In this document: positions 230 to 22,047 of the stretch, piece after piece | Layout: every line of letters starts with the position of its first letter | Numbering within the stretch: the stretch's first letter is position 1 | Source: an uncultured Desulfobacterales bacterium | GTDB lineage: Bacteria; Desulfobacterota; Desulfobacteria; Desulfobacterales; JAHEIW01 | Assembly (NCBI GenBank): GCA_947259495.1 | Contig: CAMYLV010000008.1 | Coordinates: 135,939-186,602, forward strand | Reading direction: 5' to 3' | DNA: 50,664 nt | Notes under the pieces: generated by a model | The model's input: only the letters and a program-made list of their open reading frames with translations | What the model was told of the DNA's origin: nothing | The model's database searches: none | Position numbers and translations under genes: made by a program

Positions 230-303
230 CTTTCATAGAATCCTCGAGACGCTTCTTTCAATTTTTTCTACTCTAAATTCAGCTTTGCTGCTATGCTTTG
301 TAT

Positions 304-1242
304 ATGAAATTTGATTTGCTCCGGTCATGCAAAAGCATTCGACGCCTGCTAGTGGCTTGCGTCATCATAATGGCATCAGCCGGGTGTGCGGCAGCAGCGG
401 CTGAAGGCAATCAAACTGCAGTTGCCCGTCTTTCATCGGCCAAGGTCGCCAACGGCCAAGTGACGGTTCTTGAAGTAAATCTGCGCGATCGGGACCTGGC
501 TGCAACCGACCTAAAAGCCCGATTCGATCAAAACGCCATTGCCCTTTTCCAACATCCGTTAAAGCCCGAGGGGATCTATTGCGGGCTGGTCGGAATTCCG
601 ATAAGCAGCACTCCGCAAAAGACAGTCATTAAGCTGGAATGGACGGATTCCGATGGCCGCCTGCAGAGCGCCAGCGTTCCATTGCGCATCGTTGAGGGAA
701 ATTACAAAAAGGAAGCCTTGCGGGTGGCGCCGCGTCATGTAAAACCGAGCCCCAAAAATCTGAAGCGCATCAAGGCCGAAAAAAAAGAGATTCGACGCAT
801 CTATACCAGCAGCAGCGACACCCGCCTTTGGTATGGAAATTTTATCAAGCCACTGACCAGCAATACCACCAGCGTTTTTGGAACCCAGCGACTGTTTAAC
901 GGTGAGCTACAAAGCTACCACCGGGGCACGGATTTGCGTGCCAAAACGGGTACGCCCATCTATGCATCCAACTCGGGAATTGTCAGGCTTGCCAAAAACC
1001 TCTTTTATTCCGGCAATATTATCATCGTGGATCATGGCAAGGGCATCTTCACCAACTATGCGCATCTGAATAAAATTGATGTGAAGGCCGGCCAGCACAT
1101 AGCCAGAGGCGATCAAATCGGGCTGAGCGGAGCCACCGGCCGGGTCAGTGGCCCACATCTGCACTGGGGCGTAAAAATAAACGGAGCTTATGTGGATCCA
1201 CTGCAGTTCATGATCGTTATCTCGGACCTGCTGGCGCAATGA
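304..1242 (+). CDS. M23 family metallopeptidase (LytM-type), exported
   Basis: About 312 residues. It is predicted to be a peptidoglycan endopeptidase of the M23/LytM family acting in the periplasm. The N-terminus has a hydrophobic signal segment ending near SAGC, a marginal lipobox. Residues about 40-135 look like the beta-sandwich domain found ahead of M23 domains. The C-terminal third carries the zinc-site motifs HRGTD (first His and Asp) and GPHLHWG (HxH), so the catalytic set appears complete. I prefer the ATG at 304 over the TTG at 298. No clear Shine-Dalgarno sequence is visible for either. The gene stands alone between two intergenic gaps, with a lytic transglycosylase gene next in the same direction. 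Confidence 0.9.
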   Translation: MKFDLLRSCKSIRRLLVACVIIMASAGCAAAAAEGNQTAVARLSSAKVANGQVTVLEVNLRDRDLAATDLKARFDQNAIALFQHPLKPEGIYCGLVGIPISSTPQKTVIKLEWTDSDGRLQSASVPLRIVEGNYKKEALRVAPRHVKPSPKNLKRIKAEKKEIRRIYTSSSDTRLWYGNFIKPLTSNTTSVFGTQRLFNGELQSYHRGTDLRAKTGTPIYASNSGIVRLAKNLFYSGNIIIVDHGKGIFTNYAHLNKIDVKAGQHIARGDQIGLSGATGRVSGPHLHWGVKINGAYVDPLQFMIVISDLLAQ

Positions 1243-4106: not shown

Positions 4107-5720
4107 CTACCCGTATGTTAGAAACACCAGAAACGCCAGAATCCCGGTGCCATAGAGTGCAAGGATAGTATAATATGGCCCCCAGCGGGTCTGCCGGGCT
4201 CTGGTGGTTCGGGGTGCGTGTCTAAACAGGGTGTTTTCCAACCGGTTGGGATCCGGCTTTGCAAAAGCCAGGCTAATCAAATACCCCGCTGCGTACGCCA
4301 CAAAAAAACCAATCACATTCCACCACAACCAGGAAATTTTCGGGGCATATCGCCACAATAAAAGATTCACCGCAAATCCGACGATCAAGCCCGCGGTGGC
4401 GCCCGGTCCGTTTACGCGCCGGGTCAGCATGCCCATCAGAAAAACGGCCAGCAGGGGCCCGTTTAACAACGATCCGATTTTGTTAATGGATTCAACAATC
4501 GTGTCGGAAATGTTGCCCACAAAAAACGCAAAAAACAAACACACCAACCCCCAGAACACCGTCAGCAATTTGGATATGACCAGCTCCATGCGGCCCGAAA
4601 AATTTAATTTTAGATAACGCTTGACGATATCCTGCATGCTCAGCGCGCTGAGGGCGTTGAGGGTGGAATCCAGAGATGACATGGCAGCAGCAAGCAAGCC
4701 CACCATGACCAACCCGATCAGGCCATGGGGAAAATGTCTCAGGACAAAAACGGGCACAGCCACGTTATAATTGGGTTTACCCCCATCGGTCAGCGGCAAA
4801 GCGGAAACAAAATCAGGGTGCAAGAGGGCATAAGCACCCAGACAGAGACCCAGAAAACAGTATGCGAAAACCAGCGGGAAGCGCAACATGCCGTCTAAAA
4901 AAAGCGCCCGCTTGGTGTCCGCCACACTGCGGGTGGAAAGTTCCCGCTGGGCCTGAGTCTGGTCACAACCGTAATATGAGAGGTATAAAAAAAGCCCCCC
5001 GATCAACATGGGCCAGAAAGCATAGGTTTGGCCATCTCCCAAACCATGACCGCTAAAATTAACGGCCCGCAATCTAGCCGGCTGGTCAAAGACGACGGGC
5101 AGGCCGCCGGCCAGTTGAACGGACACAATGATCGCTGCCAGGATGGCGCCGAAAAGTACCCCAATTTGAATCACATCGGACCAGATGACGGCTTGCATGC
5201 CGCCCAGCACATCATACAGGATGGTAATCCCCCCTAGCATCAGCACGGCCGCCCAGAACGGAATGTTCAGGCAAAGCATTAACACCAGGGATATGCCGTA
5301 TACGGTGACGCCGGTGCCAAATGCGCGGATGAATTGAAAAAAGAGACTGACGATGGTGCGCGTGCCGGCATCAAACCGTTTTTCCAGGTAAGCATACAGG
5401 GAAATGAGATTAAGACCCCTTAACAGCGGAAAGATCAGCGCCATTAAAATGATCATGGCAAAGGGTACAGCTAACTCATACTGGAGCCAGATTAGCCCAC
5501 CGCCGGCAGCAAAGGCCACAAAGGCCGGGGCACCCAGCAGGCTGTTGGTCGAGCACTGGGTGGCCATAGTGGAAAGCGCAATGGGCAGTGGTGGGGTTTT
5601 GTTACCCCCCAGGTAGTAATCCCGATCGGATTTTTGGCCGCGGGCTAAAAGAAGGCTTAAGCCGATCATACCCATCAGGTAGACAATGATAATGGCCCAA
5701 TCAAAAGCATTTAACGTCAT
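4107..5720 (-). CDS. sodium:solute symporter family (SSS) transporter
   Basis: 537 residues, very hydrophobic, with about 13 membrane spans, as expected for the SSS/SLC5 (LeuT-fold) family that couples Na+ to uptake of sugars, acids or other solutes. The conserved N-terminal DYYLGG segment (about 34-39) and the GGMQAVIWSDVIQ stretch (about 173-185), typical of the family, are present. The substrate cannot be told from sequence. It is a single gene reading away from the DUF4124 gene, with a 169-bp divergent gap. An imperfect palindrome lies just past its stop. Confidence 0.9.
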   Translation of the reverse strand: MTLNAFDWAIIIVYLMGMIGLSLLLARGQKSDRDYYLGGNKTPPLPIALSTMATQCSTNSLLGAPAFVAFAAGGGLIWLQYELAVPFAMIILMALIFPLLRGLNLISLYAYLEKRFDAGTRTIVSLFFQFIRAFGTGVTVYGISLVLMLCLNIPFWAAVLMLGGITILYDVLGGMQAVIWSDVIQIGVLFGAILAAIIVSVQLAGGLPVVFDQPARLRAVNFSGHGLGDGQTYAFWPMLIGGLFLYLSYYGCDQTQAQRELSTRSVADTKRALFLDGMLRFPLVFAYCFLGLCLGAYALLHPDFVSALPLTDGGKPNYNVAVPVFVLRHFPHGLIGLVMVGLLAAAMSSLDSTLNALSALSMQDIVKRYLKLNFSGRMELVISKLLTVFWGLVCLFFAFFVGNISDTIVESINKIGSLLNGPLLAVFLMGMLTRRVNGPGATAGLIVGFAVNLLLWRYAPKISWLWWNVIGFFVAYAAGYLISLAFAKPDPNRLENTLFRHAPRTTRARQTRWGPYYTILALYGTGILAFLVFLTYG

Positions 5721-6439: not shown

Positions 6440-7735
6440 CTATGAACCAGACGACTGACAGACCACCTGATAATCCTGGCGCAGCACAAAAATAATCGCC
6501 AGCCATATGGCACAGATGGAGACGGTGAACCAGCTGAGTTGGGGCACACTGACCTTAAAGGGCAACCATTGGGTGAACAGCAGGATTAAAAGAGAGCCGG
6601 CAACTTTAAACAGGCGGTAGCCAAACATGTCGATCCAGGCTTTGGCCTGATAGATCAGGACTGAATCAACCGGGACATACAACAGCTCCTTGGAGGCCCG
6701 GTTGATCGAATAGGAAAGCGCCCGATCGCTGATTTTCGCGGCACAGCTGAAAAAAAGTGTCGATTGCAGGAAAAAGCACCAGGAAAAGATGAAGATCATC
6801 ATCGGTTGTACCAGCAGCCCGGCAATCGCCCCTAAATAGCGGTGCACCAGGGGAGTGATCCCCAGATTGACGCCAATCGACATAATCCCCAACACACTGA
6901 AAAACAGCGACAGAAAGGCTGTGCGGGCTTCCCGGTCCGGGTAAGCGCTTTCAACGGTGTTTAAAAATTGATACTCAACCAGCGGCGATGCCAGCTGCGC
7001 TAAAAGCAAAATGGCCGCAATCAGCATTAAATACCGGCTGTGCCGCAAAATTCGCCAACCCCCGCTGGCCTTCTGATGCGAGCGAACCACGTGCTCAACC
7101 TCACAGTAGATACCCACCCGCCCCATCAGCCAGGTCAACGCAAATATAATCCCGATGATGCCGGCAGCGGTCAGCAGCAGATCCGGTGTCTGCAACGGCG
7201 TGTGCCTGATGAGCATGGCCGAAACCCAGCCCCCGGCCACTCCGCCAACCAGACCGCCGGTACCGACGAGCCCGTACCAGGATTTGCCTTCATGGGTGGT
7301 GTAAATCGAGTCGGTCAGACTCCAGAATTGTTCCACCAGAACAACGCTTAAAATATCGACAAAAACATAAAAACAGGCGGCAATCCATACGGTGGAATGG
7401 TTCATCAACAAACGAAAAACGACCAGCAGGATGCTGATGGTCAGGCAGGTGCCGAGCACCACGTTGATCCGGCTGTGGCGCTCGACCAGGCGGTGATAAT
7501 AGCTGATAAAAACGCCCATGGTTACGGCCGTGGCGATCCAGATGTAGGGCAGATGCTCGGCGCCCAGGGATTCGATAAAAAGGGAACGGCTGGCCGGCTT
7601 GAGCTGATAAAGGGCCATGATAATCAAAAAAAAGTTCAGAAATAGAAACCCCGCCCGAGCACCCAGAGTACGCAACGCCGGGTATCGGGCTTCACATTCG
7701 GCTGTGATGTCATTTTTTGAATTTTGTGCTTGCAT
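6440..7735 (-). CDS. ATP/ADP translocase-like (Npt1/Npt2 family) carrier, MFS fold
   Basis: 431 residues with about 12 hydrophobic segments. The region around DRALSYSINRASKELLYVP (about residues 335-353) is typical of the bacterial relatives of plastid/rickettsial nucleotide transporters (COG3202). Such proteins exchange nucleotides or move related solutes across the inner membrane. Free-living homologues have no proven substrate, so nucleotide transport is inference. The gene lies 29 bp from the divergent serine hydrolase gene, so their promoters must overlap each other or the coding starts. The exported dikinase-like protein two genes away makes nucleotide transport an interesting possibility. 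Confidence 0.75.
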   Translation of the reverse strand: MQAQNSKNDITAECEARYPALRTLGARAGFLFLNFFLIIMALYQLKPASRSLFIESLGAEHLPYIWIATAVTMGVFISYYHRLVERHSRINVVLGTCLTISILLVVFRLLMNHSTVWIAACFYVFVDILSVVLVEQFWSLTDSIYTTHEGKSWYGLVGTGGLVGGVAGGWVSAMLIRHTPLQTPDLLLTAAGIIGIIFALTWLMGRVGIYCEVEHVVRSHQKASGGWRILRHSRYLMLIAAILLLAQLASPLVEYQFLNTVESAYPDREARTAFLSLFFSVLGIMSIGVNLGITPLVHRYLGAIAGLLVQPMMIFIFSWCFFLQSTLFFSCAAKISDRALSYSINRASKELLYVPVDSVLIYQAKAWIDMFGYRLFKVAGSLLILLFTQWLPFKVSVPQLSWFTVSICAIWLAIIFVLRQDYQVVCQSSGS

Positions 7736-7764: not shown

Positions 7765-8652
7765 ATGGACAGGTTTAAACAATTATTGGCGCTGATTTTC
7801 TTTGTTCTAATTTGCGCCAGTCTGACCGGTGCCCAATCTCAGGACGCTTCCTGGACCCAAAGCTGTGATCCTCGCCTGCAAAAAGCCCTGGAAAAGCGCA
7901 TCAATGCCCTCAAACTGGACGGCGCCACCGAGCATAAAAACCTGAGCATTGTGGTCGTCGATATCACCGATGTTTCCGATCCGCGCATGGCTTACGTTAA
8001 TCCCAATGAAATGATGTATGCCGCCAGTTTACCCAAAATTGCCATCCTTTTAGGTGCTTTTGAAAAAATAGCCGCCGGCGAAATGACCCTTGACGATGAA
8101 ACCCTTGAAAAACTCAAGCTCATGATCCAGCAGTCTTCCAACACGGCGGCTTCCGAAATGCTCAACCGGATTGGCATCGATTATCTGGCCGACCTGCTGC
8201 AATCGCCCCGCTACCGACTGTATGATTCTGAACAACACGGCGGTCTCTGGGTCGGCAAAGAATACGGCAAGGCCCCGGCCCGCAAAAGGGACCCGCTCCA
8301 CAATCTTTCCCATGGTGCCACCGCCCTGCAGGTAGCCCGCTTTTATTACCTGCTGGAAACCGGTCAACTGGTTTCGCCGCAACTGAGTCAATTAATGAAA
8401 TCGATTCTGGCGGAAACGGAAATCGAACACAAATTTGTCAAAGGGCTCAAAGCGGTTCAGCCGGATTCAGAAATTTACCGCAAATCCGGTACCTGGGGGC
8501 CCTATCATTCCGACAGTGCCCTCATCGAGCATGATGGCCGCCGCTACATTGCGGTGGCTTTAGCCAAAAGCCGCCATGGCGAAGAATGGCTCCAAAAACT
8601 CATTGTGGCTCTTGATGAGGTTGTTTGCCAGTCTGAGACGAACCGGAACTAA
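7765..8652 (+). CDS. serine hydrolase, class A beta-lactamase-like fold, exported
   Basis: 295 residues. The N-terminal signal peptide ends near TGAQS. Three active-site motifs of the penicillin-recognising fold are visible: SLPK (88-91, nucleophile Ser), SSN (124-126) and KSGT (240-243, KTG equivalent). It could be a peptidoglycan D-Ala-D-Ala hydrolase, an esterase or a beta-lactamase; the motifs do not decide. The start is set by the signal peptide, although no Shine-Dalgarno sequence is seen in the 29-bp gap. The last 53 bp overlap the 3' end of the convergent, related hydrolase gene. Confidence 0.85.
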   Translation: MDRFKQLLALIFFVLICASLTGAQSQDASWTQSCDPRLQKALEKRINALKLDGATEHKNLSIVVVDITDVSDPRMAYVNPNEMMYAASLPKIAILLGAFEKIAAGEMTLDDETLEKLKLMIQQSSNTAASEMLNRIGIDYLADLLQSPRYRLYDSEQHGGLWVGKEYGKAPARKRDPLHNLSHGATALQVARFYYLLETGQLVSPQLSQLMKSILAETEIEHKFVKGLKAVQPDSEIYRKSGTWGPYHSDSALIEHDGRRYIAVALAKSRHGEEWLQKLIVALDEVVCQSETNRN

Positions 8653-9919
8653 ATTTTCCCACCTTGTAATATTTTTCCAGCATACGATGAATGCGCGTCG
8701 CCAGCGTCTGATGGCCAACGGCTGAATTTTTGCGCAAGACATTCGACATGACCACCACCACATAAAACAGCTGCCGCTCGGCGGCCGGCGCCTCGATGAT
8801 GGCCACCGAGTTGAGCATATTGGTGACGTTGCCGTGGTATTTTTTACACTTAAAATCAGGTTCGGGTTTACATTTGTAAAGCGAGCCGGATTTAAAATAA
8901 ACCGCCGATGCCGCTAGCGCCGGTGCTGAGGCATAGCGAATACGCCGCTGGGTCATGTACAGCAGGCGCTTGATTTCACGACTGGAAAAGGCATCCACCA
9001 GTTTTCCCTGTTCCAGTTTTATTAACCAGCGCATCAGTTCCTGAGGCGTGGCATAGCTGGTGGTGCCCGGCACCATGCGTTTGCCTTGCCAGGTAAAAAA
9101 TGATCCCTGGCGCAGCTGTTCCAAGTCCAGTCCGTTCCGCACAACCGGATCCTGCAGAGCCCGTGACAGCAGGGCGGCAAGCTCCTTTTTCGACGTGGCC
9201 TTAAAAAACTGTTGGGCCTCGATCTCGCTGACCGGATAGGCCGGTCCGAAGTGAACCAGCAACATCAGATGTTTTAATACCATGCTGGCGGCCGCGTTGG
9301 AGCTGGCTGAAAGCATCCAGTCCAGGTAGGTCCATAAGCTGGCCTGGTCACCGATCTGAATTTTTGGATAGCGCACGCGCGCGTTACCCGGTTGCCAGAC
9401 CGGCACGACATGATGATCCGATTGAATAAATTCATCGGCGGTGACCACTGTGTTGCGCAATATAGCAAGGCGTGCATCGATATTGTCGGGATAAATATCA
9501 GCCAGCGCCTGAAAAACACCCAGGGCAATCAAAATTTTACCCACACTGCCCGGATTGGCCCGTGCGGTGCTGCGGTGTTCGGCATAGCGCGGCTGTTCAA
9601 GGTTGCTTAAATCCAGCACCGCCACAGCATAACGATCCGCTTCAGCGCCCAGCAGGTTTCGCACCCGGACAACAAATTCAGCGTCGGGCGGCGGGATCTC
9701 AAAGTCAGATCTGGCCTCCAGGCGTATATCCACCTCATCGATTGACAGCAGGGCACCGGGGGGCTGCTTGGGCGCCCGCACCTTGCCTTCCATGGCCAGG
9801 CGATAAGCTTCCACCCTGGCGATGCCCGTGTATTCATATCCATCCAGTGGATAGGCCCCGCAGGTTGCCGCCATAATCAAACCGATTATACAGACAATAG
9901 CACTGAACAGGGGTTTCAT
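8600..9919 (-). CDS. serine hydrolase, beta-lactamase-like fold, exported
   Basis: 439 residues. A signal peptide covers about residues 1-22. An N-terminal extension of about 95 residues precedes the hydrolase domain. Motifs are SVGK (125-128), SSN (206-208) and a KSG near residue 345, so the catalytic set seems complete. A Cys pair in the KCKPEPDFKCKK loop may form a disulfide. The start overlaps the stop of the upstream dikinase gene as ATGA, implying translational coupling and joint function. Its 3' end overlaps the related hydrolase gene on the other strand by 53 bp. The substrate is unknown. Confidence 0.85.
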   Translation of the reverse strand: MKPLFSAIVCIIGLIMAATCGAYPLDGYEYTGIARVEAYRLAMEGKVRAPKQPPGALLSIDEVDIRLEARSDFEIPPPDAEFVVRVRNLLGAEADRYAVAVLDLSNLEQPRYAEHRSTARANPGSVGKILIALGVFQALADIYPDNIDARLAILRNTVVTADEFIQSDHHVVPVWQPGNARVRYPKIQIGDQASLWTYLDWMLSASSNAAASMVLKHLMLLVHFGPAYPVSEIEAQQFFKATSKKELAALLSRALQDPVVRNGLDLEQLRQGSFFTWQGKRMVPGTTSYATPQELMRWLIKLEQGKLVDAFSSREIKRLLYMTQRRIRYASAPALAASAVYFKSGSLYKCKPEPDFKCKKYHGNVTNMLNSVAIIEAPAAERQLFYVVVVMSNVLRKNSAVGHQTLATRIHRMLEKYYKVGKFSSGSSQTGKQPHQEPQ

Positions 9920-12846
9920 CTTTGCACCTTTGGCGGGATTTCATCCAGATTGACCGTTTTGGTGTGATTCTGTTGTAGACGACTGTCCAGATTGTTTAAA
10001 AAAAGATTTTGCCGGGCCCGGACGCTTTCCAGAAAGGGTCGAATTTGAAACAGCATCAGTCGATTCTGGTAAAAACCAAACTCTATATCCGCCGGCACCG
10101 GCCGGCCCTGAGCGTCCTGTAATTTGGGAAACCGCTCGGGTACCGTGCGGGCAAAATCCACTAAATGCCGGACCTCGGCCTCGCTTAATAAAGCCGGTGT
10201 TCCGCTGGCCGAAACCTTTGATACGCCGCCTTCGTTTAACAGCACGCGCTTGTAAGGATCGGTGGCATGGGCCAAAAGACGGATGCTGCCGCTTTGCATG
10301 TTTATCTTAAGCTCTTCGGCGGTTTGACCCGAAACCGCTCCGCCAACGCCCTCATTGACTGCTACGGTCAGCCAGCCGGACTGCCCGCTTGCAACGTCGG
10401 CGGTAACTAAAACACCGGACTTTTCCACCGGAACACTTTTCATCAGCAGTACGGATGCATAGACATGCTCCGGGCTTTCCATGTAAGCCTGACGCCATCG
10501 AAAGGCGCGCTCGGAAAACGGTGAGGCCCATACCCGCTGAATGGCCGCCATGGCATTTTCAAAACCCACGACATGGGGAACAGTCAAATTCAGACCCGCA
10601 CCGGTGAACCCCGGTAAGTCTTCAACATTGGTGTCACTGCGCACAAAGACGCCGTATGTTCCATCCGGGCCGAAGGTGTCTTGCATGGCGGCACGCAGCT
10701 GGTTGCGAAATTCTTCACCTGGGTCCAGATTCACCATCCAGTGGCGTATTTTTTCCAGAAAATTTTGAATGACTTGATCTTGTCTTGGGGGATCGCCTTT
10801 GAGGCGCCGGATGATTTTGTATTGATCCTGCATCCAGCGAAAGGCGGAAATGCCGCCGGCCTCGATGGGTTGCTCGAGTAATTGCCGGTAGAGTCCAAAG
10901 GGGATCACCAGACCATCGGCGACTGCTTCCGGGAAATAGTGTTTGAGTTCGCCCAAATTGGCGGCTTTGGGGCCGCAGATCCGGCCCGAAGCGGTGCTTC
11001 GCAGCGTATCAAGGGAAAGCAGGCGTCGGGCATTCAGATCCAGTTTCTTCAGATCCGGCCGAATCAGTAAATCTTGCGGGCCCTTATCCACATCAAAGGT
11101 AGGGTCCCACTGCGGGCCATCGGCTACCAGTTGCACGATCCCGCGCGGGCTGACGGCCAGCACCACCTGCTGGTCTGCCATGGATTGGATCAAGGGCAGC
11201 CATTTCTGATCGATGGCCACATTGGGTATACCCAGATTGCGGGCCAGCAGCTGTACATGCGATAAAATATTGCCTTCGCCGGTGGTCAGTATGCCGGCAA
11301 CCGGGGGCAGATCTTCAGTGGTTGAGGGCAGCACGTAAATGCCCGTTGAATCAAATTTGAAAGGGGCTTTGCCGGATGGCGATATTTTGAGCTTACCGCG
11401 CGCCAGTCCGGGATTTAAGCCTCTGAGCCCCGTATCGGCCGGCTGGCCGAAAAGAAAGTTGCGGATGCCAAGCTGTCGATTGGCATCGGCAATCAGGCTT
11501 TCGAGCACCGCCGCGTAAGACAGCAAAAGGCTGCCGCGCAGGCGATCATGAATGTAACGGCGACTAAGGGGTTCAATGGTTGCAAAATGCGTGACGGTTT
11601 CACCCAGGTGGTATTGCAGCGTGCGGTCGGCCCATTCAGGCATGCGTGCAGTATATTGTAGTCCGGCTTTATAATCGATGAGTTGCGGATCATTCTGCAT
11701 CGCTCGGCTGATGTTTTGGCCCAGCGCCTGTTGCTGGCGCGCTGAAATAAGCCCGATGCCGTAAAGACCATCGGCATATTTGATCAGCCAAGAGAGTCTT
11801 TGGCGACGGGAGGCCTCTGCCAGCTGTGCGATCATGATATCACCCATGCGAAACAACTCGCCTTCCAACAAGATGCTCGCATCCAAAACTGCCAGCATGC
11901 GTGCGGCATCACCGGCTTTGGCCAGATTATCGCGCAATATCGCCAACAGAAGGCTGGCGGCTAAAAAACGATCCCTGGAATCGTTTTGGGGAGCAAGTCG
12001 GCCGGCGGTTTGAACAAGGGCTCGGGAAAATTGGGAATTTTTGACCGTTTGGGCCAGAGATTCAATTTCCTTTTGGATATCGCGGACTTTGAAAACCTGC
12101 TCGATGATTTCCGCTAAATGGGCATAGTCCTTGGCCAGCTCCGGCTTTCCCTGTCGAGCAGCATAGTCTTTAACCTTTTGGGCATCAGCCAGTTCCGGAT
12201 GGACATGCAGCTTGATGCGCAACGTCTCAAAATCGGGATCGTTTTCGGCAAGGGTGCGTGAAAGCTGCCGCATTTCGGTAATCGGTGCGCCCTGGCGGCC
12301 ATGGGGAATAAACCGCACGGCTTCCCGCAGCACCATAAACCGATTTGCGCGCCAATCCGGATCGACAACCAGGGCCAGCAAAAGCTCGCGCCCGGCATGG
12401 GTTTCGTCTTCAGTCTGCAGTGCCCCACGATAATAGCGGGCGCGACGCAAAATCCAGCCATCATCGGCTTCAATTAAAAATTGCTCCAGAACCATTTGTT
12501 TGACCATATCCAGATGCCGGGGATCCTGCAAAAATTCCTGGGCGCGCACATCGGCAAAAACGTTGGCTATAAAATACCCGTTGGCCCGTAACTCTTTGAC
12601 GCGGTCGGTCCATTCGCCGTGCTGCACCCCGCCACCGCGCTCGCGGCAGGCGTACTCTTTGGGAAGCTGGATGGTCCCGTCATTGCAAAACCAGCGAATA
12701 TGTTTGAAGGGCCCCCGGGAAGCTGTCTTCATCTTCTGCACCCAGCTGCGCAGCGTGGCTGCATCCGGTGTGGCGGCCGCAACACTGCCCGCCACCAGCG
12801 CCAGTATGGTTAAACAAATTATTCCCGAAACCCATTGTTTTTTCAT
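9916..12846 (-). CDS. exported dikinase-like protein (phosphohistidine domain + PPDK-type ATP-grasp domain)
   Basis: 976 residues. A strong signal peptide (MKKQWVSGIICLTILALVAG, cleavage near VAAA-TPD) sets the ATG at 12846 rather than the upstream ATG at 12891. Residues about 30-470 are helical and of unknown type. A swivelling phosphohistidine domain follows, with ILSHVQLLARN (catalytic His about 530). The C-terminal PPDK-type ATP-binding domain has GPKAANLGEL (about 625-634), RSDTNVED (about 736-743) and the DIEF...QIRP end (about 920-937). The His domain before the ATP domain is the order in glucan, water dikinase; PEP synthase and PPDK have the reverse order. No PEP-binding barrel is present. 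An ATP-dependent enzyme outside the cytoplasm would be unusual. It is coupled by ATGA overlap to the serine hydrolase. Confidence 0.8.
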   Translation of the reverse strand: MKKQWVSGIICLTILALVAGSVAAATPDAATLRSWVQKMKTASRGPFKHIRWFCNDGTIQLPKEYACRERGGGVQHGEWTDRVKELRANGYFIANVFADVRAQEFLQDPRHLDMVKQMVLEQFLIEADDGWILRRARYYRGALQTEDETHAGRELLLALVVDPDWRANRFMVLREAVRFIPHGRQGAPITEMRQLSRTLAENDPDFETLRIKLHVHPELADAQKVKDYAARQGKPELAKDYAHLAEIIEQVFKVRDIQKEIESLAQTVKNSQFSRALVQTAGRLAPQNDSRDRFLAASLLLAILRDNLAKAGDAARMLAVLDASILLEGELFRMGDIMIAQLAEASRRQRLSWLIKYADGLYGIGLISARQQQALGQNISRAMQNDPQLIDYKAGLQYTARMPEWADRTLQYHLGETVTHFATIEPLSRRYIHDRLRGSLLLSYAAVLESLIADANRQLGIRNFLFGQPADTGLRGLNPGLARGKLKISPSGKAPFKFDSTGIYVLPSTTEDLPPVAGILTTGEGNILSHVQLLARNLGIPNVAIDQKWLPLIQSMADQQVVLAVSPRGIVQLVADGPQWDPTFDVDKGPQDLLIRPDLKKLDLNARRLLSLDTLRSTASGRICGPKAANLGELKHYFPEAVADGLVIPFGLYRQLLEQPIEAGGISAFRWMQDQYKIIRRLKGDPPRQDQVIQNFLEKIRHWMVNLDPGEEFRNQLRAAMQDTFGPDGTYGVFVRSDTNVEDLPGFTGAGLNLTVPHVVGFENAMAAIQRVWASPFSERAFRWRQAYMESPEHVYASVLLMKSVPVEKSGVLVTADVASGQSGWLTVAVNEGVGGAVSGQTAEELKINMQSGSIRLLAHATDPYKRVLLNEGGVSKVSASGTPALLSEAEVRHLVDFARTVPERFPKLQDAQGRPVPADIEFGFYQNRLMLFQIRPFLESVRARQNLFLNNLDSRLQQNHTKTVNLDEIPPKVQR

Positions 12847-14417: not shown

Positions 14418-15689
14418 ATGTCAGATCTTAGAAATTTGCTAAAAATTTCAGACCGCCGCCTTGAAGAAATCAACGCCCTGTTGACCGATCCGGGCAATGA
14501 GCTCGTCAATGAACTGCTGGAAGCCATCGAAGCATTCGGTGGGCCTATAGAGATTAACCGCAAAGCACAAGAAGCCGCAAAACTTGAAAATTTAACGACC
14601 CGACTGCAAGAAGCCAAATCACCCTATGTCGATGATCTGAACTGGCTGATCGAACAACGCGACAAAGGGGCCTTTATTTCCATGCCGGACTATTACGGGC
14701 ATGTCCTGGGCGATAAATCCAAGGCTGCCGATATCGACCATAAAAATGCGGTTACGCTGGAAATCAGCGCCCTGCAGTATTTTCCCTGGCTGATCGCCGA
14801 AGCCCGGCGCTGTATCGAGAAAGGGGAACTGATGCCCGGCCGCTATATCCGGGTGCGCAATATGGCAGAGCAGGAAACCGACAACGGTGACGTTATGGCC
14901 GTGGCCGCCGCCATGCAGATCGTCGGTGCCACCTATGTCGAAACGCTGGATACCAAGGGTACCGACGGCTCCAACATACACCTGGGCGGCCCGGAAACCA
15001 TCACCGGTTATTTCGGCGGTGTGGGGCAACCCAACGAATATCCCATTAAATGGGTCCGCGAGTATCTTAAATTCTACACAAGCTACGGCGTGCAGCAGGT
15101 GCTCAACATCAACCCGGGAACCGTGCTGGTGGGATATCTGCTTCACAAGCTGGGAGTCAATAATGAGTTTAAGATTTCAGTGTTTATGGGCAATGACAAT
15201 CCGTTTTCGATCCTGTGGACCCTGACCACCGCCCGGCTCTTTTCGCGCGCAGACGGCACTACTTCTTTGATCGGATTTAATCTGTCCAATTCGGCCAACA
15301 ACGACACCATCCGCAAGGCCGCCGCCATCCGCAAGGCTTTGGGTTTGGAGGATGTCGTCCGCTTTGAACATCACATTACCGAAACCTGGAAGTCCATCGT
15401 GCGTCAGCCTTACAACCGCCGGGACGAGCTGATCGAAATCGCCCGGGAAGTACCCAACATATCAGCCAAACATGAAGGCGGCGAAGTCGAGGCTGAACAA
15501 GAACTGGCGCATCCTTCCGACATCCTGGATTATTTCATGGCCAAAAGCGACGTCGAAAAACAGGGGTTGATGCCGGCCCTTGAACAAAATTATATCGAAA
15601 AACACCGGTCCACCAACCTGACGGCCGATGCCTTAACCCGGGCCGGCATCGGCGTGGTCTATGCCACCAAACTACATAAAACTTCGTAA
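14418..15689 (+). CDS. unrecognised 423-residue cytoplasmic protein, panB-linked
   Basis: 423 residues, soluble, no signal peptide or membrane span. I do not recognise the family. Conspicuous motifs are ETLDTKGTDGSNIHLGGPE (about 180-198), NINPGT (about 234-239), a run of GNDNP (about 259-263) and EHHITETW (about 319-326). The alternation of beta-type hydrophobic stretches and Gly-rich loops suggests an alpha/beta enzyme, perhaps a barrel, but this is a guess. The ATG at 14418 is chosen because GGAGGA lies 7 nt upstream; that site overlaps another ATG at 14403. It follows panB in the same direction, separated by a palindromic repeat. Confidence 0.8.
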   Translation: MSDLRNLLKISDRRLEEINALLTDPGNELVNELLEAIEAFGGPIEINRKAQEAAKLENLTTRLQEAKSPYVDDLNWLIEQRDKGAFISMPDYYGHVLGDKSKAADIDHKNAVTLEISALQYFPWLIAEARRCIEKGELMPGRYIRVRNMAEQETDNGDVMAVAAAMQIVGATYVETLDTKGTDGSNIHLGGPETITGYFGGVGQPNEYPIKWVREYLKFYTSYGVQQVLNINPGTVLVGYLLHKLGVNNEFKISVFMGNDNPFSILWTLTTARLFSRADGTTSLIGFNLSNSANNDTIRKAAAIRKALGLEDVVRFEHHITETWKSIVRQPYNRRDELIEIAREVPNISAKHEGGEVEAEQELAHPSDILDYFMAKSDVEKQGLMPALEQNYIEKHRSTNLTADALTRAGIGVVYATKLHKTS

Positions 15690-15737
15690 TTAATAATTAT
15701 AAGCAACAATCTAAACTATTGCGCCAAATCAGATTCT

Positions 15738-15800
15738 ACCACGAAGTTCACGAAGCAATGGTATAGGTTACCTTCGTGCATCTTTGCGTGCTTTGTGGTG
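15738..15800. repeat. imperfect palindrome (ACCACGAAG...CTTTGTGGTG)
   Basis: ACCACGAAGTTCACGAAG pairs with CTTCGTGCATCTTTGCGTGCTTTGTGGT around a short loop. The arms are made of CACGAAG-like units. It is another type of dispersed intergenic palindrome and lies 49 bp after the preceding stop. Confidence 0.6.
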
Positions 15801-15844
15801 AAATACCTATCTGAAAACAAGCACCCATTTGGAACACGTCCGAT

Positions 15845-15858
15845 TTGACATAAATCAA
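15845..15858. promoter_or_regulatory. FNR/CRP-family operator-like site
   Basis: TTGAC-ATAA-ATCAA matches the FNR-type inverted repeat TTGAT-N4-ATCAA at 9 of 10 positions. It lies 73 bp before the ATG of a membrane iron-sulfur protein, a usual position for activation by an oxygen- or nitrosative-stress-sensing CRP/FNR regulator. The regulator itself is not in the window. Confidence 0.5.
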
Positions 15859-15931
15859 GGTCTCACATACCCTTTTGCCCTATCCTGCTGCAAAATTCAG
15901 TAATCTTTGCATCACAACAGTTAAAGGATAA

Positions 15932-17035
15932 ATGAAATACTTTCCCATACAGTTCGTTCGCAAAATCGTCCAGTATGGTTTTGTGGCGATGATCGTTTTG
16001 ATCGGCGTGCAGTTTACTCTTTTTGTCAACCAGCTGGAAGCGGGCATTCTGCCGACCATCACCCGTCCACCGGGAATCGAGGGTTTTTTACCGATCAGCT
16101 CTCTGATCAGCTTTAAATACTGGCTGGTGACCGGCATCTTTAACCCCATCCACCCCTCCGGACTGATCATCTTTTTAGTTATTTTGGCGACCGCCATTTT
16201 GCTCAAGCGCGGTTTCTGCAGCTGGGTGTGCCCGTTTGGCCTGTTGACCGAGTATTTGAATCGGCTGCATAGGTTCATTTTCAGAAAAGACATCCGGCTG
16301 CCCCGCTGGCTGGATTACCCGTTGCGCAGTTTAAAATATCTGCTGCTTTTCTTTTTTATCTGGGCCATCATCATCAAGATGAACCCGCGCGATCTGGATT
16401 ATTTCATCTACAGTCCCTACAATATGGTGGCTGACATTAAAATGCTGCATTTTTTTAAAGATATCTCCGCTTTTGCCCTCTGGGTATTGGCGGCTTTATT
16501 TATTTTATCCATTTTGGTGCGCAATTTCTGGTGCCGTTACCTGTGCCCCTACGGAGCGCTACTAGGCGGGCTCAGTTTTATCAGCGTCTTTAAAATTCAC
16601 CGCAATGAAGACACCTGCACCCAGTGCCAGCAGTGCACGGGCACCTGTCCGGTGGACATCAAGGTCCACAAAACCACCAGCGTGATCTCCGATGAGTGCC
16701 ATGCCTGCCTGAAATGCGTGGCTGTTTGCCCGGAGCAAGACACGCTTTATATATCAGCAGCAAAAAGATCCGGCATATTAAAACCGGCGCTTTATGCCGT
16801 CATCATCTGCTTGCTTTTTATCGGCGGATCGGTCATCGGCCGATTAAGCGGACACTGGCAGACCCGCATCACAAATTATGAATACTCGTTTCATGTCGCC
16901 CACCTGGACACTCCCTTTTACCAGCACAACCGCGGCCAGGTGCCGGTTTACAACAAAGACGCCTGGATGATGATGATGGAAAGAATCAAGCGTTCCGAAA
17001 AAGCCTGGCGCAAGGGGCAGCGGTTAAAAGATTAG
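15932..17035 (+). CDS. NapH-like membrane polyferredoxin
   Basis: 367 residues, inner membrane. Transmembrane segments surround two CxxxCP motifs (Cys96/Cys100 and Cys201/Cys205), followed by two [4Fe-4S] motifs (Cys229-232-235-239 and Cys256-259-262-266). This is the NapH/CcoG-like layout, used to pass electrons from quinol or cytoplasmic donors to periplasmic reductases or assembly systems. A further hydrophobic segment near 285-303 and a Tyr-rich 65-residue tail extend it beyond NapH (about 290 residues). It stands alone, so its partner is unknown. AAAGGATAA precedes the ATG. The FNR-like site upstream fits anaerobic control. Confidence 0.85.
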   Translation: MKYFPIQFVRKIVQYGFVAMIVLIGVQFTLFVNQLEAGILPTITRPPGIEGFLPISSLISFKYWLVTGIFNPIHPSGLIIFLVILATAILLKRGFCSWVCPFGLLTEYLNRLHRFIFRKDIRLPRWLDYPLRSLKYLLLFFFIWAIIIKMNPRDLDYFIYSPYNMVADIKMLHFFKDISAFALWVLAALFILSILVRNFWCRYLCPYGALLGGLSFISVFKIHRNEDTCTQCQQCTGTCPVDIKVHKTTSVISDECHACLKCVAVCPEQDTLYISAAKRSGILKPALYAVIICLLFIGGSVIGRLSGHWQTRITNYEYSFHVAHLDTPFYQHNRGQVPVYNKDAWMMMMERIKRSEKAWRKGQRLKD

Positions 17036-17059
17036 TGCTGAGTCATGAGGACTGAGCAT

Positions 17060-17162
17060 TATAGGGGTTGTCAAAAAAACGTTGCGGTATTCAAACGTTT
17101 TTTTCTACAACCCCGCATGCCACACTTCCGCATTCCGGAACATTATTATGGAAAACGGTATA
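17060..17162 (+). repeat. 103-bp MITE-like element, copy 3 (full)
   Basis: From TATAGGGGTTGTCAAAAAAACG to GAAAACGGTATA, a full-length copy. It lies 24 bp after the NapH-like gene stop and about 105 bp before the next start. The outer stem uses GGGG/CCCC in place of GTGG/CCAC, a compensatory change that keeps the pairing. Confidence 0.85.
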
Positions 17163-17267
17163 AAAGCTTGTCTTCGTTCGTAAAGTGTTTACCCTCTGGG
17201 TATAAATTTTTGTTAATGAAAAAACTTTCCGACCCCTGAAATCAATTGCAACGGCAAAGGACCCGCC

Positions 17268-19484
17268 ATGATCCGGCAGAATAAAAGCAGTCCGTTACCC
17301 GGAACCCTTTTGACGGTCATACTTCTTTGCATGGCACTTGTAATGCTGCAGAGTGCCAGCGATTCGACCGCCGCACAAATCGCAAATAAGCCCGCCCACA
17401 ACCGCTTGATCAACGAATCCAGCCCCTATCTGCTGCAGCATGCGACCAATCCAATCGACTGGTACCCCTGGGGAGCAGAGGCTTTTGATAAAGCCCAAAA
17501 AGAAAACAAGCCGATATTTTTATCCATCGGATACTCCACCTGCCACTGGTGCCATGTGATGGAACACGAATCCTTTTCGGATGCGGAGGTGGCGGCCCTG
17601 TTAAATCAATATTTTGTGTCCATCAAAGTTGACCGTGAAGAGCGCCCGGATATTGATCGGGTCTATATGACCGTCACCCAGACCATGACCGGCCGGGGCG
17701 GTTGGCCCAACACGGTTTTTTTAACACCCGACCGAAAACCCTTTTTTGCGGGCACTTATTTTCCAAAAGAGACCCGCTGGGGTACCACTGGGTTAATGGA
17801 GCTTTTGCCGAAGGTGGCTGAGCTCTGGCAAAATGATCGACAAAATGTTTTAAAAAGTGCAGATCAAATTACCAGCCTCATCGCCAACCGGCGCAAACTC
17901 AGCCCCGGTGCCGCCCTTGACAAATCCATCCTTGATAAAACCAGCAGCATGCTGGCCGAAGTATATGACGCCGACTACGGCGGCTTCGGGCCGGCCCCCA
18001 AATTTCCGACTCCCCATGTATTCGCATTTTTACTGCGGCACTATTACCACACGAAAGACAGCCAGGCACTCGCGATGGTCGAAAAAACACTGATCCGCAT
18101 GAGACTTGGCGGAATTTACGATCATATCGGTTTTGGCTTCCACCGCTATTCCACTGACAGGCAATGGCTGGTACCGCATTTTGAGAAAATGCTGTATGAC
18201 CAGGCCCTGCTGGCTATCGCATATACGGAAGCCTACCAGGCAACCGGAAAAGTATTTTACGCCCAAACGGTTAATGAAATTTTGGCTTATATTTTGCGGG
18301 AGCTGACGTCAACAAATGGGGGTTTTTACAGCGCAGAAGATGCTGACAGCGAAGGGGTTGAAGGCAAGTTTTACTTGTGGACCCTGCCGCAGATTCAAAA
18401 AATTCTGGGCCATGACGAAACGGAAACATTTAAAAAAATCTATAACCTTGAGCCTGACGGCAATTTCACCGCTCACGAGGCCGTGCATACAGCCGGAAGC
18501 AATATTCTTCATCTCAAAGAGGCGCTACCGGATTTGGCCGGGGGCCTGGGTATGCCTGAAAAACAATTGCGTCAGCGAATGGAGAAAAACCGCACGCAGC
18601 TTTTTGAAGTCCGTGAAAAACGGGTTCGCCCTTTTAAGGATGACAAAATCCTTACCGACTGGAACGGATTGATGATTGCCGCGCTGGCCAAAGCCGGGCC
18701 GGTGCTTGGCGAACCCCGTTACACCGCTGCCGCTGTCAGGGCCGCTGATTTTATTTTACGCGAACTGCAAGCCGCAAACGGCCGGTTGATGAAACGCTAC
18801 CGTAAAGGAAACGCCGGTCTGCCGGCCCATCTGGATGATTATGCGTTTACCGTCTGGGGTCTGTTGGAACTTTATGAAGCCACTCTGGAAGCGACTTATC
18901 TGCAGGAAGCCCTTCGCATCAACGATCAAATGATAGCGCATTTCTGGGACGATACCGGCGGTGGCTTCTATATGACAGCTGACGATGGTGAGAAATTGCT
19001 GCTTCGCAGCAAAGACATCTACGACGGCGCCATCCCATCCGGCAACTCGGTGGCGACGTTGAACCTACTGCGTCTGGGCCATATGACCGGCAGGGAGGAC
19101 TATTTAAAAAAAGCCGAAGGGATCACCCGCACTTTTGCCGAATCGGTAAATCGTTACCCGGCGGGCCATACCCATTTGATGGTGGCACTGCAGTATGCGT
19201 TGAATCCCAATTACGAGGTGGTCATCGTCGGCCGGCCCGGAACCAAAGATACGCGTGCCATGCTGGCGGCATTGCGCAAGCCGTTTTTGCCCGGCAAGGT
19301 TGTTTTGCTGCGTCCGGCCGACAAAAAGACGTCAGCTGCAATCATTCGCCTGGCACCGTATACGGAATTTATGATTGCCAAGAACGGCAGGGCCACCGCT
19401 TATGTCTGCACCAATTTTGTCTGCAAACTGCCCACCACCGACATTTCCCAAATGCTGGCCAACCTGCAATCATCAAGTAATTAG
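17268..19484 (+). CDS. YyaL/SPATA20-type protein (thioredoxin-like + six-hairpin domain), exported
   Basis: 738 residues. After a hydrophobic N-terminal signal (about 12-36) comes the family hallmark [11 protein letters not shown] (49-59), a thioredoxin-like domain with Cys92-His-Trp-Cys95 (STCHWCHVM) and [12 protein letters not shown]. An (alpha/alpha)6-type domain extends to the C-terminus. The family (DUF255, COG1331) has a glycosidase-like fold and no settled reaction. Most members lack an export signal, so the signal here is notable. AAAGGA lies 7 nt before the ATG. The final 60 residues resemble a short thioredoxin-like end with VCTNFVC. It is a single gene. Confidence 0.85.
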
Positions 19485-21081: not shown

Positions 21082-22047
21082 ATGCCGGACGGAGATAAAA
21101 AGCTTTCAATCCCTTCAGAAACAGCAACGCCGCCAGATCGCGTAATCGGAGATCTGTCAAAGATGCTTTCGGGTAAAAAAATTATCCAGGAGGCCTCTGA
21201 ATTTGTAAGAGCGCATATCCGCCGGCAACCGCCGGTGCAGCGTTTTTTTAGCTTCATGCCCACCATGTTGACGCGGGTTTCGCCGTTTCATTTCAAAGGC
21301 CGGCATAAATCAGCCACCTGGCCACTTGTCCGGCTGGATTCGGGCGATGCCAATTCGTGGGGAAACATGCAGGTGGTGGGCGAGTTGCTGATCATTTTTG
21401 ACGAAACCATTCTATTTTGTCTGCTGGCGCTGATGACACGGTTTGAAAGTGACGCTTTTGAAACTTCCCAGACGGACCTGGCCCAAATTGCAGGCATCGA
21501 TCCAACACCTAAAAATGCCGCTAAAATCTGGAAGAGTATTCAACGCCTGGCCGGCACCCGGATAGATTTGCAACTTTTTAGCGGCAAAGGCAAAAAAAGA
21601 AAAACGCTAAAAGAATTGACCGGCTCGATCCTGAGCTTTGCCGATAAAGATCAGGCCAACGGACATGTCCGTATTGTCGTCAACCCCTATTTTCTGGAAA
21701 TGTATGCCGAAAGTTTTGTGACCAACATCGATATGGAATTCAGAAGCCGCTTGAAATCGGACATCAGCAAAGCTTTTTATCGTTTCTACCAGGGTCAATA
21801 TGAGACGCAATCGGAAATTGAAATCATGCGCCTGGCCCAGGCTGTCAATTTGAATATCGCGCAGGAAATGAAGCAATTAAAAGCTAAGGTGCGCACGGGG
21901 TTAAAGGAACTTCAAGGAAAGGGATACCTGGAAACCTATGAGATCTCCCGTGATAATCGTGTGATTGTTTCGAAAACCAAAGATGCGGCTGTTAAATTCG
22001 AGAGTCAGATTTTGGGCAATTCCAATATTGAATATTTTATTGGTTAA
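21082..22047 (+). CDS. plasmid-type replication initiator homologue (TrfA/RepA-like)
   Basis: 321 residues, soluble, basic. The segment TWPLVRLDSGDANSWGNMQ and the downstream helix-rich winged-helix pattern resemble replication initiators of the TrfA/RepA group, which bind origin iterons. The identification rests on general similarity only and is moderate. No iterons, parA or parB are seen around it, so it may be a chromosomal remnant of an integrated plasmid or a regulator derived from an initiator. GGGGGG precedes the ATG as a possible ribosome-binding site. It has its own strong promoter about 170 bp upstream. Confidence 0.6.
   Translation: MPDGDKKLSIPSETATPPDRVIGDLSKMLSGKKIIQEASEFVRAHIRRQPPVQRFFSFMPTMLTRVSPFHFKGRHKSATWPLVRLDSGDANSWGNMQVVGELLIIFDETILFCLLALMTRFESDAFETSQTDLAQIAGIDPTPKNAAKIWKSIQRLAGTRIDLQLFSGKGKKRKTLKELTGSILSFADKDQANGHVRIVVNPYFLEMYAESFVTNIDMEFRSRLKSDISKAFYRFYQGQYETQSEIEIMRLAQAVNLNIAQEMKQLKAKVRTGLKELQGKGYLETYEISRDNRVIVSKTKDAAVKFESQILGNSNIEYFIG

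Follow-up and report, generated by a model that had tools for sequence, protein, structure and literature searches.

A putative exported dikinase of Desulfobacterales in a module with an NTT-family carrier and two serine hydrolases

The periplasm is generally regarded as having no pool of ATP, and a gene that appears to encode an exported dikinase raises the question of where such an enzyme would find its ATP and what it would phosphorylate. The gene was found in a 50,664-nucleotide stretch from an uncultured Desulfobacterales bacterium (the window), at positions 9916..12846 of the minus strand (start codon ATG at 12846 and stop codon at 9918-9916), and its 976-aa product (DIK) was characterized from the open reading frame, Pfam matches, and a family alignment. 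A previous annotation made without database searches (the sequence-only reading) had described a signal peptide, a phosphohistidine domain, and a PPDK-type ATP-binding domain, in the order known from glucan, water dikinases (GWD).

Domain order and active site of the dikinase

The proposed export was supported by hydropathy. Residues 1-24 (12775..12846, minus strand) form a signal-peptide-like segment, with a 12-residue peak of 2.84 within residues 1-25, and from residue 111 onward no 19-residue window exceeded 1.23 (residues 81-110 not scored). The N-terminal hydrophobic segment appears in 22 of the 24 aligned members, the two exceptions being an N-terminally incomplete sequence (L083) and one with an ambiguous start (L104). 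Two cysteines, C54 and C67, are conserved in at least 90% of the alignment rows, which would fit a disulfide and an oxidizing compartment. They belong to the N-terminal part (residues 25-470; 11437..12774, minus strand), which corresponds to no Pfam family and is a candidate for binding the acceptor.

Downstream of this region, a PEP-utilizers match at residues 507-543, slightly below the Pfam cut-off (21.1 versus 23.1 bits), marks a swivel phosphohistidine domain at about residues 475-570 (limits set by eye; 11137..11424, minus strand) with H530 (codon 11257-11259) inside the match. The PPDK-type ATP-grasp domain follows at residues 624-940 (10027..10977, minus strand; PPDK_N E value of 2.5e-25, profile positions 4-311 of 328), and the protein ends 36 residues beyond this match. 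The motifs quoted previously (ILSHVQLLARN, GPKAANLGEL, RSDTNVED, and QIRP) were all found in the protein. Across the family (Pfam, E ≤ 1), PEP-utilizers was matched by 23 and PPDK_N by all 24 aligned members. In all of them, H530, K627, R736, E742, D743, D920, E922, Q934, and R936 are invariant and collinear, down to 28% identity, so that the swivel-then-ATP-grasp order is a trait of the family rather than chance. These positions include what we take to be the catalytic His and the ATP-grasp Lys, Arg, Glu, Gln, and Arg, with the roles that such residues have in the dikinase family; by this broad test for phosphohistidine dikinases, all were present and invariant in 24 of 24. The opposite order, that of PEP synthase (PPS), was not seen in the models, which place the swivel N-terminal to the ATP-grasp, and the list of 18 models matched by the aligned members (E ≤ 1) contained no PEP/pyruvate barrel, in agreement with the sequence-only reading. 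An AlphaFold2 model of the dikinase (alignment of 3 rows) had a pLDDT of 32.9, too low for use.

The likeness to GWD proved partial. What stands is the order, since in GWD1 too the swivel phosphohistidine domain precedes a C-terminal PPDK-type ATP-grasp and the PEP barrel is absent; GWD phosphorylates a glycan via a phosphohistidine. On the other hand, the GWD1_pHisD model (PF22973) gave no match in the window protein (E ≤ 1) and only weak ones in 8 of the 24 members (best E value, 0.01), and no starch- or carbohydrate-binding module was among the 18 models listed for these members (E ≤ 1). The window dikinase also differs from GWD1 in being bacterial, with an export-like N-terminus and linkage to serine hydrolases and a nucleotide-transporter-like carrier. 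Moreover, a Streptomyces plasmid protein has the same order, aligned in one collinear piece (query residues 497-938, 24.8% identity), and therefore the order is not specific to GWD. The plasmid search in which it was detected matched 78 of 72,556 records, none covering 80% of the query; among the best 30 of these 78 matches, 29 start at query residues 623-625 and thus cover just the ATP-grasp part, and one starts at residue 497.

The ATP-grasp and swivel domains of PPS are homologous to those found here (profile E value of 4.7e-33 with 8a8e), although their order is reversed, and the window dikinase differs from PPS further by the lack of the barrel and by its export-like N-terminus. Rifamycin phosphotransferase (Rph) is a dikinase with a non-pyruvate acceptor. 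Homology in the ATP-grasp was detected with 5hv1 and 5fbs, labeled PEP synthase, which we take to be Rph structures; the weak swivel match in 5fbs (chain residues 799-840) is C-terminal to the ATP-grasp match, unlike the arrangement here. In the HMM comparison with GWD, PPDK, and PPS, the window protein fell below the cut-off of TIGR01418 (PEP synthase; 75.6 versus 739.75 bits), with neither a GWD1_pHisD match nor a barrel, and it also fell below that of NF041857 (Rifamycin phosphotransferase; 71.1 versus 999 bits). Judged by these model cut-offs, it classifies as neither GWD, PPS, nor Rph.

Co-occurrence and linkage of four genes

The dikinase forms the core of a module of four genes, the others encoding two serine hydrolases (SHA and SHB) and an NTT-family carrier. 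SHA (439 aa; 8600..9919, minus strand; Pfam, hydropathy, and profile) and SHB (295 aa; 7765..8652, plus strand; Pfam and hydropathy) both have the Beta-lactamase2 fold and a signal-like N-terminus. The stop codon of the dikinase and the start codon of SHA overlap in an ATGA (9916..9919, minus strand, from the ORF coordinates), suggesting co-translation. The class A-like motifs SxxK, SxN, and K(S/T)G are found at residues 125-128, 206-208, and 343-345 (KSG) of SHA and, as SLPK, SSN, and KSG, at residues 88-91, 124-126, and 240-242 of SHB, and at least 90% of the ungapped rows conserve them (19 SHA and 21 SHB rows). One SHA relative (L114) carries a PG_binding_1 domain. An M23 peptidase (298..1242, plus strand) is loosely associated with the module, the same subfamily being found near it in L034, L036, L114, and L116. 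The four module proteins gave no PADLOC match at E ≤ 0.01, which speaks against a defense-system role.

The dikinase was present in 25 of the 291 genomes of the order, spanning 10 families as labeled. With the dikinase profile (A2), 8 of 32 matches in the order and 7 of 12 in the phylum were dropped (short, swivel-only, ≤25 bits), and one genome (G005) was counted in spite of a missing A2 match, given that its gene lies next to a run of N. SHA was detected by profile (E ≤ 1e-20) in 24 of the 25 genomes with the dikinase (in G446 by a fragment only) versus none of the 266 without it. An NTT was found in 24 of 25 versus 51 of 266 genomes (Fisher p of 6e-15, kinship ignored), and NTTs scoring >200 bits with profile A3 in 19 of 25 versus 0 of 266. 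Because 15 of the 19 genomes found by A3 and 7 of the 24 found by A9 had contributed rows to those profiles, the independent part of this evidence consists of the absences in dikinase-free genomes and the matches outside the alignment.

The association is also one of position. Among 33 stretches fetched around dikinase genes, 8 in which the dikinase or the region 3′ of it reaches a contig end (L006, L082, L084, L092, L094, L096, L097, and L101) were left out. Of the 25 informative loci that remained, 20 have an NTT no more than 3 kb from the dikinase; in the window it is three genes away. L094 and L106 resemble two pieces of one gene. The small custom HMMs found no NTT in the stretches fetched for L095, L098, L099, L100, and L104. 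Three of these five loci belong to genomes (G446, G464, and G500) that have the same class of NTT next to SHB at another site; for L100 and L104, the rest of the genome showed no such carrier adjacent to SHA or SHB. All four genes stand together in six orthologous loci (G000-G005), with the NTT cut by the contig end in G002. The place near the dikinase is filled by several NTT lineages, which speaks for selection acting on the function of the NTT; at L093, a dikinase of the TLC1 clade has a TLC2 neighbor on the same contig. A search of genome contigs retrieved only two close relatives. At L105, an exported-looking 5′-nucleotidase adjoins the dikinase and could dispose of AMP. In the open PMC literature, the module was not described in any title or abstract start among the matches listed.

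The NTT-family carrier as a candidate source of ATP

The window carrier (431 aa; 6440..7735, minus strand) belongs to PF03219 (TLC ATP/ADP transporter), with 75.2 bits against a cut-off of 21, which was exceeded by 9 of the 10 linked carriers scanned (L103 fell below). In a PDB profile search (E ≤ 0.1), its class matched only 9j3n (2.7e-25) and 9j3j (2.7e-15), both ATP/ADP carriers, of the plastid and chlamydial type. It scored 59.8 bits with TIGR00769, the NCBIfam superfamily model of NTP/NDP exchangers (cut-off, 387.2). Residues K155, E245, E385, and K527 of AtNTT1 have been shown by mutation to matter; the window carrier has W66, D127, E254, and K377 at these positions. Its class keeps K527, with D for E245, E or D for E385, and W at K155, and the nonconserved K155 position sets this putative nucleotide carrier apart from the plastid and chlamydial translocators. 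Other linked NTT classes keep fewer of these residues, TLC2 and a HEAT-fused class being also without K527. The AlphaFold2 model of the carrier (alignment of 2 rows) had a pLDDT of 38.3, too low for use. With 4.4 Mb, the window genome is unlike a reduced parasite genome in size.

Free-living bacteria also have members of this broad family, HEAT and cNBD fusions among them (Major et al. 2017, PMC5381601). In the available part of that survey, NTT homologues were counted in many bacteria, deltaproteobacteria included; the functionally characterized ones all come from parasites or endosymbiotic organelles, those of parasites and plastids acting as importers, one outside the main clade transports NAD, and free-living ones are given no function. 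The same part contains no pairing of NTTs with an exported dikinase.

The sequence-only reading had rightly noted that the ATP source needed explanation and had not named this carrier, which is now the candidate. We give slightly less than an even chance to the reading that the NTT supplies periplasmic ATP and that the extracytoplasmic dikinase phosphorylates an envelope acceptor, perhaps peptidoglycan. We infer that the inner-membrane carrier would move ATP, and outward, exchanging it for spent nucleotide. The exported dikinase would bind the delivered ATP in its ATP-grasp domain, in the periplasm, and would act as an active enzyme: H530 of the swivel would be phosphorylated with release of AMP and Pi, the chemistry usual in dikinases, and the phosphate would be handed to an acceptor bound by the N-terminal part. 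The likeliest acceptor would be peptidoglycan or a molecule attached to it, because SHA and SHB have the penicillin-interacting type of fold and one SHA relative bears a peptidoglycan-binding domain.

Other readings concern the dikinase itself. That it is cytoplasmic, its hydrophobic N-terminus being an anchor or the product of a wrong start, is hardly credible: a TTG start does lie 15 codons upstream of the ATG, and against this stand the conservation of the hydrophobic segment, the cysteine pair, and the strict co-occurrence with SHA, itself with a signal-like N-terminus. The sequence-only reading had also considered a degenerate binding protein, that is, a noncatalytic ATP-grasp relative serving as an envelope binding or scaffold protein. 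The subthreshold swivel score and the general view of a periplasm without ATP would agree with this, but all 24 members preserve the domain order, H530, and the eight invariant ATP-grasp positions, which makes it very improbable.

As for the carrier, we think it unlikely that its cargo is not ATP but a different nucleotide, NAD, or a fragment of the wall, with the dikinase obtaining its phosphate otherwise. The nonconserved K155 position, the two linked classes without K527, the wall-related look of the module partners, and another NTT class paired with aldo/keto reductases all point that way, as does the NAD carrier described in PMC5381601; however, K527 and an acidic side chain at both the E245 and the E385 position are retained in the window carrier, and the ATP-grasp residues retained by the dikinase imply that a triphosphate is needed somewhere. 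Quite unlikely, in our view, is an inward carrier that retrieves free periplasmic nucleotides, with the dikinase and hydrolases as scavenging or attack enzymes acting on extracellular ATP, e.g., from lysed neighbors. Import by the characterized NTTs (in the available accounts), the nucleotidase at L105, and the possibility that the serine hydrolases and the M23 peptidase attack foreign cell walls favor it, yet salvage would presumably face competition from an enzyme that consumes ATP in that compartment, and the nucleotidase was seen at a single dikinase locus among the flanking genes that were scanned.

We know of no bacterial precedent for a nucleotide-fed extracytoplasmic dikinase acting on the envelope. 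The grouping of a dikinase gene with an ATP-carrier-family gene and two cell-wall-type enzymes suggests an undescribed way of powering envelope chemistry. The close genomic pairing of NTTs with an exported ATP-grasp enzyme offers one direct test for both periplasmic ATP and NTT function in free-living bacteria, and it hints that the envelope carries a phosphate modification not yet known. A wider version, possible although on the unlikely side, would have NTTs exporting ATP to specific exported enzymes, the dikinase phosphorylating the cell wall or another envelope polymer, as part of an energized periplasm in bacteria without signs of parasitism (as judged from genome size alone); a sister pairing might then perhaps be an NTT that supplies an exported aldo/keto reductase with NAD(P)H. 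A second NTT class beside a wall peptidase (DUF882) was rejected when the partner gene turned out to be an aldo/keto reductase. The partners of this different class are aldo/keto reductases, enzymes that would require NAD(P)H rather than ATP.

A probable exported dikinase and its neighbors

The dikinase gene (DIK; 9916-12846, minus strand, start ATG at 12846) encodes a product of 976 aa with a signal-like N-terminus by hydropathy and nothing membrane-like from residue 111 on. The sequence-only reading had described a phosphohistidine domain preceding an ATP-binding domain, and we recovered both its motifs and this order, with the swivel phosphohistidine domain at residues 507-543 (PEP-utilizers, 21.1 bits against a Pfam cut-off of 23.1) and PPDK_N downstream at 624-940 (2.5e-25). 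The barrel was indeed missing, and no further Pfam family was found in the protein at E≤1. DIK shares its layout with the glucan, water dikinase (GWD) type and, by models and cut-offs, lies outside GWD, PEP synthase and rifamycin phosphotransferase; we file it as a new variant among phosphohistidine dikinases.

An ATGA overlap joins the DIK stop to the start of SHA, a Beta-lactamase2-fold serine hydrolase of 439 aa; a second one, SHB (295 aa), lies on the opposite strand. Each of the two begins with a signal-like segment and has the SxxK, SxN, and KSG motifs conserved. After SHB comes a 431-aa carrier of the ATP/ADP translocase family (NTT; PF03219, 75.2 bits against a cut-off of 21). The same four genes were found by tblastn at the orthologous loci of five genomes (G001 to G005), the G002 carrier being truncated by the contig end and the G005 dikinase abutting a run of N. 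A second cluster in G001 (L035) carries a 49% identical dikinase, SHA, and an NTT of a different class. Among the papers listed in literature searches of the open PMC subset, none described a dikinase-SHA-SHB-NTT module in its title or the opening of its abstract. A sodium:solute symporter gene (4107-5720) adjoins the module, as in L033, with a relative in L104, and none was called in the remaining compared loci. At 21082-22047 the window, part of a 194-kb contig, also encodes a protein with matches to initiators of plasmid replication (Rep3_N, RPA).

Alongside the computed results (export-like N-terminus, domain order, intact residues, co-occurrence, and linkage), we consider it most likely that the NTT carrier would feed the dikinase in the periplasm and that the enzyme so supplied would work with SHA and SHB on an acceptor in the envelope, a reading in which we infer activity, substrate, direction, and acceptor.

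Distribution, conservation, and linkage

A profile built on the N-terminal and swivel regions detected the dikinase family in 24 of the order's 291 genomes, each with a best match of ≥330 bits, and across the phylum in 5 of 395 at ≥140 bits, the window's genome among them. G005 was added to the order's set from a separate search. The remaining matches (8 of 32 in the order and 7 of 12 in the phylum) were swivel-only, at ≤25 bits. Among 24 aligned members, with identity to the window protein down to 28%, H530, K627, R736, E742, D743, D920, E922, Q934, and R936 were invariant, residues expected to be catalytic in enzymes of this family, and C54 and C67 were conserved in ≥90%. All 24 matched PPDK_N and 23 PEP-utilizers, while GWD1_pHisD was matched weakly by 8. 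Among solved structures, the dikinase profile had eight matches of 2e-10 or better, all to sequences labeled PEP synthase; four further matches, one of them PPDK, stood at 0.15 or worse. Two dikinase genes are split into two frames each (L084:2042-4986 and L102:8900-11802), by assembly error or decay.

Of 33 dikinase stretches fetched, 8 were uninformative; in 20 of the 25 counted, an NTT lay within 3 kb, and none was found at that distance in L095, L098, L099, L100, and L104. In three of these five (genomes G446, G464, and G500) the same NTT class adjoins SHB elsewhere in the genome, in G500 with SHA also beside the pair. Within the same 291 genomes, SHA (E≤1e-20) occurred in 24 of the 25 with the dikinase (all except G526; only a fragment in G446) versus 0 of the 266 without. 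Any NTT was present in 24 of 25 (all except G463) versus 51 of 266 (Fisher p 6.4e-15, uncorrected for kinship). With one carrier profile (A3), an NTT above 200 bits was present in 19 of 25 versus 0 of 266, the best of the remaining matches scoring 156 bits. PF03219 was matched in 28 of 317 genomes of the phylum and in none of 14 control genomes.

Carrier classes and the transported substrate

Four carrier groups occur beside the dikinase or SHA/SHB: TLC1 (that of the window), TLC2, a HEAT-fused class, and the L105 carrier. From the carrier tree we relied only on TLC1, TLC2, and the HEAT class forming distinct groups (each 97/99 support or better); the L105 carrier attaches at the TLC1 base on its own long branch, such joins being unsure. 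The HEAT-fused L103 carrier, which gave no PF03219 match of its own, was placed in NTT by kinship to L110, which exceeds the PF03219 cut-off. The L093 dikinase falls within the TLC1 clade (97/94 with L086), yet its same-contig neighbor is a TLC2 carrier. Replacement of one NTT by another in the same place suggests selection for NTT function as such.

At E≤0.1, the only PDB matches of the carrier profile were ADP,ATP carrier proteins, 9j3n (2.7e-25), which we take to be chlamydial, and 9j3j (chloroplastic, 2.7e-15). Mutation-tested residues of AtNTT1 were taken from PMC3306366. They were mapped to the window carrier through printed alignments (offset 84, all four letters agreeing). K527 corresponds to K377, kept in TLC1 and L105 and absent from TLC2 and the HEAT class; E245 to D127; K155 to W66; and E385, presumably among the mutation-tested residues, to E254 (E or D in TLC1, G in L105). 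Profile matches and residue mapping make it likely that TLC1 carriers move some nucleotide; the other linked classes may do so. Alternatively, the linked carriers may move something other than ATP, a reading fed by the NTT loci of genomes lacking the dikinase, where an aldo/keto reductase adjoins the NTT in 9 of 10 fetched (L117 to L125, not L126; four identified by Pfam, five by phmmer). On visual inspection six of these loci show a twin-arginine N-terminus; TAT_signal gave a single weak match, below its cut-off. A second NTT class thus appears paired with an exported-looking nucleotide-dependent enzyme, possibly a nucleotide-cofactor pairing, but the parallel is only suggestive because Tat substrates usually load their cofactor before export.

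The envelope side

The SHA of L114 contains PG_binding_1, and those of L035, L083, and L093 have similar extra length and, like it, lie beside TLC2 carriers. One M23 peptidase subfamily has a member close to the module in the window and in L034, L036, L114, and L116. In L105, the dikinase-NTT pair lies between an exported-looking 5'-nucleotidase (PF02872; 6686-8413) and a HEAT-cNBD protein (15511-18771), which gave no PF03219 match and is possibly an NTT fusion. These domains and neighbors point to peptidoglycan as the place of action, and the L105 nucleotidase, in one case, to AMP disposal. In the most divergent dikinase clade, a signal-bearing protein of 540 to 600 aa with no Pfam family at E≤0.01 and an FYTGF motif is encoded near the dikinase (L105:5024-6652, L104:6106-7734, and L100:5138-6949).
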